DNA of 64,000 nt from Pempheris klunzingeri (taxonomy: Eukaryota > Chordata > Actinopteri > Acropomatiformes > Pempheridae), in NCBI RefSeq assembly GCF_042242105.1, contig NC_092029.1, forward strand, positions 19,206,885 to 19,270,884, written 5' to 3'. Under the pieces are notes generated by a model, which saw nothing but the letters and a program-made list of their open reading frames with translations, did not search any database and was not told the DNA's origin. Position numbers and translations under genes: made by a program. Numbering within the stretch: position 1 is the stretch's first letter; the number at the start of each line of letters is the position of its first letter. Below are positions 8,303 to 13,481 of this stretch, in pieces.

Positions 8303-9289
8303 ATGGAATCTGAAGTGATTGTCAATGGGACTCACACTGTTACTGACATACATCCCTGCTATGAATCAGATAATGCAACTTACATATTTACAAGCAACCC
8401 CTCCATAATATGTGTATTATCATATATGTTTCTTGGCTCACTGTCTGTTGTCACAATATGTGGAAACCTTCTTGTAACAATCTCCATCATTTACTTCAAA
8501 CAGCTGCACATTCACACTAACTACCTCATCCTGTCTCTGACTGTGGCTGACCTGCTTGTCGGAGTTTTAGTTTTTCCTTTCAGCATGGCATTCACTGTAA
8601 CGTCGTGTTGGTATCACGAGGGTCTATTTTGTAAAGTACGAGGAAGCTTTGATGTTACGCTGAGCACAGCTTCTATTTTAAACCTATGTTGTATTTCTGT
8701 TGACAGATATTATGCAGTGTGTCAGCCTCTAGCTTATAAAAATAAAATAAATGATCATGTTGTTAGAAGTATGATCCTGGTTACCTGGGGAGTTGCTGTT
8801 CTACTTGGAACTGTCATCATAATTGCAGGTTTTAATCAAGGAAAATGTGAAGATAATTGTTTAACTGATGCTTTAATATCAACCACTCTGGGAAGCATCT
8901 TCTCCTTTTATATCCCAGTTATTATAATGCTAAGTATCTACCTGAAGATTTTCCTTGTGGCACAGAGACAGGCATGCAGGATCCAGGCCACAAAGTGTGG
9001 AGCAACTGTCAGTAAGATGGAGAGAAAGGCCACCAAAACTCTGGCCATTGTTTTGGGAGTCTTCCTGTTATGTTGGACTCCTTATTTTATTTGTATAATC
9101 TTTCAGCCATTAGCATACAATGTTACACCAATTTCTGTGATTGAAACACTAAACTGGCTTACACTGTCAAATTCAATGCTCAATCCATTTATTTATGCTT
9201 TCTTTTACAGCTGGTTCAGATCAGCATTCAGATTGATCATATCTGGAAAAATATTTCAAGGTGATTTTACTAACTCAAAGCTCCTTTGA
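8303..9289 (+). CDS. Trace amine-associated receptor, tandem copy 2
   Basis: A 328-residue intronless TAAR with the same architecture as copy 1: helix 3 aspartate, DRYYAVCQP, CWTP and the helix 7 signature NSMLNPFIYAFFYSWF. Start chosen as the first ATG, at 8303. Copy-specific residues include AYKNKINDH in the second intracellular loop (copy 1 has VYRIKINDH), LGTVIIIAGF in helix 4, YFICIIFQPLA at the end of helix 6, and WLTLSNS in helix 7. The first two thirds resemble copy 3 more than copy 1, suggesting either that copies 2 and 3 separated last or that sequence was exchanged. Intact and probably functional; ligand unknown. Confidence 0.93.
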   Translation: MESEVIVNGTHTVTDIHPCYESDNATYIFTSNPSIICVLSYMFLGSLSVVTICGNLLVTISIIYFKQLHIHTNYLILSLTVADLLVGVLVFPFSMAFTVTSCWYHEGLFCKVRGSFDVTLSTASILNLCCISVDRYYAVCQPLAYKNKINDHVVRSMILVTWGVAVLLGTVIIIAGFNQGKCEDNCLTDALISTTLGSIFSFYIPVIIMLSIYLKIFLVAQRQACRIQATKCGATVSKMERKATKTLAIVLGVFLLCWTPYFICIIFQPLAYNVTPISVIETLNWLTLSNSMLNPFIYAFFYSWFRSAFRLIISGKIFQGDFTNSKLL

Positions 9290-9752: not shown

Positions 9753-10327
9753 CAAAATTGATGAAATCATTTAAAAAAGCAATTTAAACATTTAATTCAA
9801 ACAAGAATCAGAAAGAATATGCTGATATATTGATATGTTTTATTACCTCAAATCATTACTTTCATTTGACCTTTCTTACTTCATAAATATGTAGTTCTTG
9901 TATCACTACATCACCTTTACACACATGGATCAAAAATTGCCCATATATGCAGGTGTGATTTAAATAAAATAAAGACATACTACAATAACGAATGTGTCTA
10001 ATAATTATTTTAGCAGTGATTCTGACCAAACAATAATGCATTTGATATTTGAATGTTTCTATCTTGGTCACATATATACAGTGGGGCAAAAAAGTATTTA
10101 GTCAGCCACCAATTGTGCAAGTTCTCCCACTTAAAAAGATGAGAGAGGCCTGTAATTTTCATCATAGGTACACTTCAACTATGAGAGACAGAATGAGAAA
10201 AAAAAATCCAGAAAATCACATTGTCTGATTTTTAAAGAATTTATTTGCAAATCATGGTGGAAAATAAGTATTTGGTCAATAACAAAAGTTCATCTCAATA
10301 CTTTGTTATATACCCTTTGTTGGCAAT

Positions 10328-11568
10328 TTCAATTTCACTTTTATTGATTCCCCAAGGGGGGAAATTCCATCTTTTACAGTGGTGGGGAAAGTGGGGGGGG
10401 GGGGGGAACAGGAGGAGAGAGAGAGGGGAGGAGAAAAAACATGCGACACCAGACTGTACTCATGTGAAGTGCAGTGTGGGGCCGGTAAAAAAACCTCAGC
10501 ACAAATTTTAGCACATTACATGACCATAACAACATTGCAGTAGAGGAGGGGAAAAGAGAAGTGTAGAATTTCCAGCACCGCAGGAGGCAGGCCGCTGGCT
10601 ACAGCCCCAATAGGCGAACCCTTGGACCACGCCCCTCGTGCTGGAGGGGTGGAAGCTGGCGAAGGCGTTGGATGCAGGGCAGGAGTAAGTCCTGATGTGT
10701 TTGTTCATCAGTTCCCAAAACCCGCCTCAGTTCATTCGCGGTCGTCGGCGATAACATGGCGGTTGCCATGGAGACATCCCTGGTCTGGTTCCAGACAAGC
10801 CAACAAGCACCAGGTGGATGGGGGTGGGATGGGGAAGAGCGTCCCAGCTGCAGTGAACTCAGAGGGGAGATTGTTCCAGCAGTGACCTTGGCCAAGGCCA
10901 CAGTTTAGGGGAGGCCAATTTAGATTAGATTATTTGGGTTAGAGCGAGACAGCCATATTCAATAGACTTGGCTTACTCTGTTGTCCATTCTGGTCACTCA
11001 ATCGATCCAAACGATCCAATCCTTTCTGCAGAGCCGAAAGCTTCTCCAAGATGTTATCCGTGCGGTTGAGAACTGCAGCCGCGGCCGCGGCCTGAGCACT
11101 GCCTAAGCCCTCAATCATGGTCGGCAGCGGAGTGGGGCCCTTGACTGCTGCCACCGTCTTCCAGTTCTGACGATACATCAGTGCAAAGCAAAAACCAATC
11201 AGCACAGCACCTATTATCATGGATCCAAACAGATAAACATCTTCCATGTCCTCAATGGACAGGTCCGCCAGGCACATGGTCCTCCACTTATCCCACGAGT
11301 CGACTGTGTAGCCAGCTGGAAACGTTCCTTGAGGGCATGCCGGTTCCCCAGGCACCGCTCTTCTGGTGCTGAAAATTTTATCAACTGCATGGAGAGACGA
11401 GTTCACTAATTCCATGGTTAAGGTTTAGGGTTTTAGAGAACAGTGCAGAGAGAGGCTCCTAGTCAAGACAAGACAAGACTGAGAGCAGAGCAGGAAGAGA
11501 TAAGGGAAGGAGAGAGGGGAGAATGCGACCGCCTTCGTCGAGAGCCAAAGTAGAAGAGAGCGACAGAG
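10328..11568 (-). mobile_element. 1.24-kb retroposed element encoding a small membrane protein
   Basis: The element interrupts the last codons of the Tc1 transposase, where the 3-bp sequence AAT occurs on both sides (10325-10327 and 11569-11571). On the minus strand it starts near 11568 with a pyrimidine-rich leader. It carries one ORF (11415-10939), then about 610 bp including a run of C. It ends in a hairpin-forming TTTCCCCCCTTGGGGAATC, an AATAAA and a short GAAATT repeat. A stem with a short tandem tail is typical of LINE-mobilised elements in fish. No reverse transcriptase or terminal inverted repeats are seen. I do not recognise the family. Confidence 0.6.
10939..11415 (-). CDS. 158-residue predicted single-pass membrane protein inside a mobile element
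   Basis: Not recognised. The frame opens with an ATG in good context (AACCATGG) and is intact. Residues 1-59 are hydrophilic with an NSS glycosylation site near the start and cysteines at 27 and 48. Residues about 60-81 (VYLFGSMIIGAVLIGFCFAL) form one clear transmembrane helix. A basic YRQNWK follows, then an alanine run (108-114) and a heptad-like segment (about 119-141: NILEKLSALQKGLDRLDRLS) that could form a coiled coil. No signal peptide, so a signal-anchor topology is likely, though the orientation is uncertain. It could be an accessory protein of a mobile element or a captured host gene. Its survival as an open frame inside a retroposed copy suggests a young insertion. Confidence 0.55.
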   Translation of the reverse strand: MELVNSSLHAVDKIFSTRRAVPGEPACPQGTFPAGYTVDSWDKWRTMCLADLSIEDMEDVYLFGSMIIGAVLIGFCFALMYRQNWKTVAAVKGPTPLPTMIEGLGSAQAAAAAAVLNRTDNILEKLSALQKGLDRLDRLSDQNGQQSKPSLLNMAVSL

Positions 11569-11571
11569 AAT

Positions 11572-12091: not shown

Positions 12092-13481
12092 CAAATGGAC
12101 ACCAGCAACAGCAGTGGAGGAGGCAACATCAGCGCTCAGACATGCTGACATCGTGGGGAATGTTCAGCACGGAAGAGGAGGCCTTGGTCTAACAACTAGC
12201 CGCCCAGCTTGGAGTAAGGCCACTGCACCAGCACGGAGGAAGATGGTGGTGGAGGAAGTACGCCGTCAGGAGGAGTCTGCAAGGTGGGCCAAGGCGGTCT
12301 CCCTTGGCAAACAGGCACAGTGGACACGGTGGGACAGTGTGGAGAGGAGGAGGTTCAGCTGGAGGGATGTGTGGGCCATGGAAGCACGAAGTTTGAGCTT
12401 TACCATCAGAGCTACTTACGACGTCCTTCCAACACCAACCAATTGCCATCAGTGGTTTGGTGATGATCCAGGCTGTACCCTTTGCTCCAGACCAGCCTCT
12501 CTCCGGCACATACTAACAGGGTGTAAGGCCAGTCTCACCCAAGGGCGCCACAACCAAGTTCTAAAGAGCCTTGCAGCCACCCTGGAGGACAAGCGAACTT
12601 CCATCAACTTCCTACCACCTCCAGTATCCAACCCCCTAAGGAGAACTGCCTTTGTCTGTGAAGGGGCTAAAGCAACCAGGAGCAGCTCCACACCATCGGA
12701 GAGAGGTCAGCTGTGCTTAGCACGTGACTGGAAACTGCTCGCGGATATTGGCAAACAACTGGTGTTTCCTCCAGAGATCACCACCACCGCCTTAAGACCT
12801 GATCTGGTGCTCTGGTCCCCTTCCCTAAAGAAGGTCTATATAATCGAGCTCACCGTACCCTGTGAGGATTCCGTGGACGAGGCATATGAGCGAAAACACC
12901 TGTGCTATGCTGAGCTAGCTGCTGAAGCACAACATCACGGCTGGAACACGGAAGTCCGCCCAGTGGAGGTTGGATGTAGAGGATTTGTGGCAACATCTAC
13001 CACCAAACTGCTGAGAGACCTGGGAATCAGGGGCCAGAGCCTGCGCACAGCCATCAAAACTGCATCAGAGGCAGCAGAGAGAAGCAGCCAGTGGCTCTGG
13101 ATGAAGAGGAAGGACCCCTGCTGGGCCCACAAGTAATAAATCAGGAGGTATGCGGTCAGCTTAGGCTTGACTCAGGGAACAGGACGACCCTGCTATGCAT
13201 AGTCCCATGAGATGTCTGCCATTTAACAACAAGTTGACTCTCATGACTAATTGGGCATGGGACGCAGGCTCAGGACTGATCGCCCTGCAGCCGGCCGCCT
13301 CTGGTGAGGGTGTATAGTGTGAAAGGCCGAAACACCCTAGGATCCGGAGGAGCACTACTGATGATGCGTCCCAAAATTCAAACTACCCCTTCAGTCTTCT
13401 TATACAGGTCAACCAACTACCGATGAACTTTGTACGTGCTTGCACAAAGGATAACAACACCTTTTCCTGTGTTTTGGAATC
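12092..13481 (+). mobile_element. 5'-truncated LINE with restriction-like endonuclease (R2/NeSL-like)
   Basis: Inserted in the Tc1 transposase between the first catalytic aspartate and the second. The open frame runs to 13136 and lacks the reverse transcriptase. It has a zinc-knuckle of the pattern CTLC-x7-H-x4-C (CTLCSRPASLRHILTGC) and a PD..(D/E)xK-type nuclease core (LRPDLVLW, then YIIELTVPCE), the arrangement at the C-terminus of R2, NeSL and Hero elements. About 245 bp of 3' UTR end near ACTGATGATGCGTCCC. The stretch 13380-13481 belongs neither to Tc1 nor clearly to the LINE. At most 2 bp of flank are duplicated. Confidence 0.8.

Follow-up and report, generated by a model that had tools for sequence, protein, structure and literature searches.

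A probable LINE-dependent retroposon family with a reading frame for a putative single-pass membrane protein in a teleost genome

A 1.24-kb insert that interrupts a Tc1 element in a 64,000-nucleotide stretch of the Pempheris klunzingeri genome (the window) raises the question of how a sequence whose only apparent gene is that of a small membrane protein has been mobilised. Usual non-autonomous retroposons are either non-coding (SINEs) or cut-down LINEs. The initial annotation, made from the letters alone, proposed for this insert a LINE-driven parasite, a captured host gene or a part of an unknown larger element, and the first of these three options fits best the data presented below.

The insert and its reading frame

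The insert occupies positions 10328-11568 of the window, with its sense on the minus strand, and the Tc1 empty-site search and the end-to-end alignment of copies identify it as a whole, near full-length retroposon. The uninterrupted Tc1 site, CCCTTTGTTGGCAAT^GACAGAGGTCAAACG, occurs 584 times (283 + 301) at no more than two mismatches in the genome that holds the window (646 Mb, 439 contigs), and its reversed control does not occur, indicating that the ends of the insert, which the initial annotation had fixed by the Tc1 interruption, are correct. The trinucleotide AAT, present once in the uninterrupted Tc1, is found on each side (10325-10327 and 11569-11571) as a probable 3-bp target-site duplication, and no clear duplication was seen by eye in 24 other copies. 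Short or missing target-site duplications are usual in CR1/L2-like LINEs.

Read on the minus strand, the insert consists of a 153-base leader (11416-11568) with a pyrimidine-rich start and an open reading frame beginning at 11415, followed by some 600 bases of 3' sequence and, at the end, by AATAAA with a short tail of repeats. As had been noted from the letters, the element body contains no polymerase ORF. Moreover, no match to the A-box or B-box consensus was found on either strand of the window copy, and a search of Rfam gave nothing. The 3' untranslated body (10376-10938) is common to copies bearing either of the two tails described below, and contains at 10755-10775 what we take to be an RFX-like X-box (GTCTCCATGGCAAC, minus strand) beside a YY1-like CATGGCGG.

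Two other features of the window lie on the plus strand. An ORF of 297 codons without Pfam match (12243-13136) stands beside an apparent second break, judged by eye, in the same Tc1; also by eye, this ORF resembles the C-terminal part of a LINE of the restriction-endonuclease type, with a Cys/His cluster followed by DLVLW...KKVYIIELTVP. On the other side, positions 8303-9289 encode an intact rhodopsin-family receptor of 328 residues (7tm_1, E 2.1e-53), trace-amine-receptor-like by eye.

The ORF of the window copy (10939-11415, minus strand) encodes 158 residues, a length that the initial annotation took as that of the gene product and that is not typical of the family. A stop at codon 146 is present in 28 of the 31 long-ORF rows of the copy alignment, being absent in the window copy, L062 and L067; the majority codon of this column is TAG, replaced by CAG (10978-10980) in the window copy. 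Since its family stop has been mutated, the window copy reads through an extension (10939-10980) up to 158 residues. Thus, the normal family protein has 145 residues, encoded at 10981-11415, and the 158-residue form is a mutation of the window copy.

The remaining features attributed to this ORF are all present in the window sequence, including the good start context (AACCATGG). The N-terminal segment (residues 1-60; 11236-11415), with two Cys and a WDKWR motif, is followed by a predicted transmembrane helix at about residues 61-81 (11173-11235), the only such helix in the protein, with a maximum Kyte-Doolittle score of 2.39 for the 19 residues from residue 62. An alanine run and a heptad-like segment, predicted by heptad count to form a coiled coil, lie at about residues 109-139 (10999-11091). 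An AlphaFold2 model of the window protein alone, of low confidence (mean pLDDT 49), places helices at residues 2-16, 38-49, 54-88 and 106-142, the last two covering the putative membrane helix and the putative coiled coil. The transmembrane helix is preceded by acidic residues and followed by basic ones. According to the positive-inside rule, the basic side of a membrane helix is cytosolic, so the coiled coil would face the cytosol.

Searches with this protein gave no relatives outside the family. No Pfam domain matched the window protein at E ≤ 1, and with 14 family members at E ≤ 10 the only match was LapA_dom in 3 of the 14 (best E 0.33, far under the cut-off), no LINE ORF1 domain appearing among the results. 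In the PDB no homologue was found: the best sequence match, to an anthranilate phosphoribosyltransferase, has E 0.34, and the profile search gave a single match, a de novo designed protein (E 0.28). A small membrane protein without a host homologue among the matches found, and blank in both the Pfam and the PDB sequence searches, could correspond to a captured viral gene or to a piece of some larger element, viral or mobile. However, we regard this origin as very unlikely, because no relative was found in IMG/VR (22 pattern matches, none confirmed) and the fuller copies of the family have constant ends and no further genes.

A dispersed family and its two 3' ends

In its own genome, the element gave at least 46 matches in a DNA search (40 of 155 candidates scored), 73 matches in a protein search at E ≤ 1 (71 candidates, all scored, some copies yielding two) and, with its last 26 bases, 90 matches at no more than two mismatches, the control for the latter giving none. 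From these three lists 67 family loci (L009-L075) were picked and examined. Starts and tails were counted in 61 of them, after removal of six duplicates: L011, with the same flanks as L009, and L035-L039, which duplicate L034. These six were likewise kept out of the frame, tree and indel counts given below. The 200-base upstream flanks of L035-L039 are 99.5-100% identical to that of L034, and their downstream 200-base flanks are 100% identical in L035, L037 and L038 and 67.5% identical, in an ungapped count, in L036 and L039. L066, whose flanks are 97 and 99% like those of L034, has been taken as a further duplicate of this locus.

L034-L039 and L066 are therefore one insertion locus present at seven places, six of which lie no more than about 170 kb from a contig end. 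The six contig-end copies contain a SINE-like insert within the ORF, and these copies sit in duplicated chromosome ends. The gap of about 180-210 bases that they show at element position ~343 was considered as an intron and rejected, since it corresponds to this insert, which is in the opposite orientation. An exact match to the first 100 residues of L066 was found at C8:27494821.

The 5' starts fall at element positions 6-27 in 16 of the 61 loci and are scattered from 62 to 1199 in the others. Over 1200 pairs of copies, the median difference outside CpG is 4.7% and the largest 9.2%; the window copy differs by 2.1% from its nearest relatives, and the copies form subfamilies marked by common insertions and deletions. 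The ORF has neither frame break nor early stop in 21 of the 31 long rows, a count that leaves out L015, with two mutually restoring deletions, and L034, split by the insert mentioned above. Dispersed copies with a conserved ORF, which the initial annotation had proposed to look for, thus exist in the host genome, and its contrary supposition, an ORF conserved in no copy, does not hold.

With respect to the tails, the ending GATCAATAAA with TTGA/TTGAA repeats after it is present in 43 of the 61 loci, GATTAATAAA in 6 and other sequences in 5; the remaining 7 were not scored, either for lack of the 3' end or because the edge of the sequence was reached (L062, L063). Among the five others, L016 and L025 have different tails, L028 a variant of the usual one, and L034 and L066 are without the usual tail. 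The short tail described for the window copy, AATAAA followed by a (GAATT)-type repeat (10328-10345), is a degenerate form of the tails that other copies carry, (TTGAA)n or (TTGA)n. Adjacent to it lies the palindromic GGAATTTCCCCCCTTGGGGAATC (10346-10368). The LINE-like 3' hairpin of the initial annotation, GGAATTTCCCC..GGGGATCAATAAA, has been borne out as a sequence conserved among copies, but not as an unusually stable fold, its folding in the window copy being no better than that of shuffled sequences (z -0.49); z values ranged from -0.86 to 1.06 in seven folded tails, two of them of other types. Taken together, the common 3' end, the variable repeat tails and the scattered 5' truncation point to target-primed retroposition of LINE type.

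Besides its GGGGATCAATAAAGGTGAATTGA end, the family has a second one, GGCGCCTATAAATAAAATG(TAT)n. At element position 1193, L016 departs from the usual 3' end and carries some 130 bases that finish in GCGCCTATAAATAAAATG(TAT)n. The joint between the body and this second tail occurs at 11 places of the genome at no more than three mismatches, the control being absent, and was inspected in six of them (L016 and L076-L080), in which body and joint agree and both the tail lengths and the DNA after the tail differ. This agreement with differing downstream DNA indicates that one body has spread with two LINE-type ends. Furthermore, the existence of subfamilies and the separate spread of the second-tail version suggest that the copies themselves serve as sources.

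The tail of L025 was considered as marking a third subfamily and discarded, its joint occurring once in the genome; it may have arisen by template switching on one occasion, or by a nested insertion accompanied by a deletion. Other irregular 3' regions have also been observed. L050, L051 and L055 have each lost roughly 180-290 bases from within the 3' body and kept a normal tail, and in L041 (around locus position 2001) the body stops at element position 862 and runs straight into TTGAATTGAA, a joint that looks like a tail attached without the hairpin.

Which LINE could have provided these ends was approached through the repeats flanking the family copies, among which no LINE with an identical 3' end was found. 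Nonetheless, AATAAAG followed by ATTGA-type repeats resembles the tails of LINE-like repeats in the flanks of L016 and L025, and the GAATTTCCCC..GGGGATCAATAAAGG block (also GAATTTCCCCC..GGGGATCAATAAAGG) resembles the end of another repeat (L033, L075). One flanking LINE, L2-type by eye, has a AATAAAGATTGATTGA tail, with a similar tail in L016, and its copy at L047 matches RVT_1 (E 5.7e-39).

The L047 locus, in which a reverse transcriptase of the same orientation comes after the family copy, was examined as a possible autonomous version of the element and rejected, since its joint is found only once in the genome. This uniqueness, together with the about constant start and stop of the fuller copies, also disfavours the option of the initial annotation that the insert is part of a larger element. 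The same evidence bears on a further origin, namely that the family is the ORF1 of an unknown LINE deprived of its ORF2. Many LINE ORF1 proteins have a coiled coil, as the family protein would, and the ORF is followed by a LINE-type 3' end; a transmembrane helix, however, is atypical for LINE ORF1 proteins, and no Pfam ORF1 domain was detected. In addition, the copies examined run from the ORF into the common 3' body, no LINE with the family ORF was recognised among the protein matches examined with their downstream DNA, and the only examined copy followed by a reverse transcriptase is L047. Such a derivation seems highly improbable. HAL1, the half-L1 that it would parallel, encodes only ORF1p (PMC5753468).

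A different proposal is that the copies are processed pseudogenes: one or a few parent genes of the host would have produced an mRNA whose 3' end is LINE-like and which was retroposed repeatedly, the protein having no role in the spread. The lack of a polymerase agrees with this proposal, as does a layout like that of an mRNA, in which 5' and 3' untranslated regions enclose an ORF with a good start codon. However, neither an intron-bearing parent nor a diverged paralogue was found in the own genome: a search with the whole protein (E ≤ 1) recovered nothing but copies of the family and fragments, and of the 61 matches that residues 1-100 of L066 gave at E ≤ 10 a single one is off the family loci (C4:30196141, 38% over 39 residues, E 0.65). 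The single-copy spliced host gene contemplated in the initial annotation is likewise absent from these 73 and 61 matches. The subfamilies with common indels, and the separate spread of the version bearing another LINE tail, also argue against repeated retroposition from a host parent, which we consider unlikely on the whole.

Constraint on the reading frame

Changes in the ORF were placed on a tree of 29 of the 59 rows, the window copy included, each with at least 380 ORF bases, L034 and L066 both being kept. Internal branches carry 28 non-synonymous, 15 synonymous and no nonsense changes, and terminal branches 83, 53 and 4, respectively. Taking into account that the spectrum of the 3' untranslated sequence predicts an N/S of 2.31, the ratio relative to expectation is about 0.8 on internal branches (p 0.30) and about 0.7 overall (p 0.016). 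The dN/dS that the initial annotation proposed to look for is only mildly below 1 over the whole tree, and the internal value, close to 0.8, does not differ significantly from expectation, so that the N/S ratios back selection only weakly; values near neutral are also what the processed-pseudogene explanation would lead one to expect. Nonsense changes number 4 against 7.3 expected (p 0.15), and 0 against 1.8 on internal branches (p 0.16), a depletion that has no clear margin.

When equivalent placements are merged, and common indels are defined as those with at least two copies with and at least two without, 3 of 3 in the ORF are divisible by three, against 0 of 28 elsewhere (p 2.2e-4; 0 of 27 without L034) and 0 of 10 elsewhere if the low-complexity last 260 bases are excluded (p 0.0035). 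It should be said that these three in-frame indels sit in the alanine run and in a 9-bp repeat, tracts in which slippage goes in steps of three regardless. For single-copy indels the proportions are 7 of 17 in the ORF and 10 of 45 elsewhere (p 0.20).

Residues 1-60 accumulate 6 internal and 46 terminal changes, compared with 41 and 93 in the 3' body (591-951; p 0.008), or 6 and 40 compared with 37 and 92 without L034, in a segment that was chosen after the data had been seen and with a depletion that includes synonymous changes. For the whole ORF the corresponding figures are 43 and 140, against 41 and 93 in the 3' body (p 0.16). From the above, we conclude that the frame was kept by the source copies; selection on the protein itself, judging from these sequence comparisons, is likely but not proven.

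Proposed mode of spread and known systems

Considering these data as a whole, the explanation that we favour, and regard as probable, is that of a non-autonomous, mRNA-like teleost retroposon family that borrows the enzymes of LINEs and has changed its LINE tail. The element would be transcribed by RNA polymerase II, as the pyrimidine-rich start and the lack of A and B boxes suggest, into an RNA ending in a LINE-like 3' end; a resident LINE would then supply the reverse transcriptase that takes up this RNA through that end, and insertion would follow at a nick. The best candidate for the helper is the flanking LINE with the AATAAAGATTGATTGA tail, whose assignment to the L2 type is by eye. In fish, the L2 LINEs ZfL2-1 and ZfL2-2 require their own 3' stem-loop for movement (PMC4176376). 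The LINE tail would have been changed at least once, probably by template switching, and the changed version would also have spread. For SINEs, an exchange of tails with LINEs has been proposed (PMC6887750).

The probable product of the ORF would be a small protein that crosses the membrane once and has its coiled coil in the cytoplasm. The maintenance of the ORF in the source copies could mean that it aids the element, or that the sources descend recently from a captured gene. If the protein acts, our preferred guess is that the coiled coil anchors or clusters the element ribonucleoprotein at a membrane. A bolder version, which we consider unlikely, sees in the family a protein-coding, polymerase II counterpart of SINEs that maintains itself and swaps LINE tails to change helper, the membrane protein actively promoting the spread of the element at a membrane; the N-terminally conserved protein might then act, for instance, by release or uptake of the RNA, or by germline localisation.

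A family in which the ORF of an unrelated membrane protein is kept, and which has two LINE-type tails in one genome, would widen the concept of the LINE parasite. A family borrowing LINE enzymes would also offer a natural case for the exchangeability of LINE helpers and for a parasite protein that matters without being an enzyme. An element of this kind does not appear in any title or abstract found, in a search that was thin on subscription papers.

Among known systems, SINEs with LINE-derived tails (PMC6887750) share with the family non-autonomous spread by target-primed reverse transcription, a 3' tail of LINE type attached to the body and the occurrence of one body with different LINE-type tails; the family, unlike them, is 1.2 kb long, has no A or B box in the searches made and contains a protein-coding ORF. 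HAL1 is also non-autonomous and encodes a protein without a reverse transcriptase (PMC5753468), whereas the family protein is a putative one-pass membrane protein for which no LINE parent was found, and the tail is a tandem repeat instead of poly(A). The stringent-type fish L2 LINEs ZfL2-1 and ZfL2-2 resemble the family in a candidate 3' stem-loop and a short tandem-repeat tail (PMC4176376), features that in the family occur without endonuclease, reverse transcriptase or ORF2. Finally, families of processed pseudogenes are likewise retroposed, with an mRNA-like structure and 5' truncation, but the present family, for which no parent gene was found, is divided into subfamilies and ends in LINE-type repeat tails of two types.
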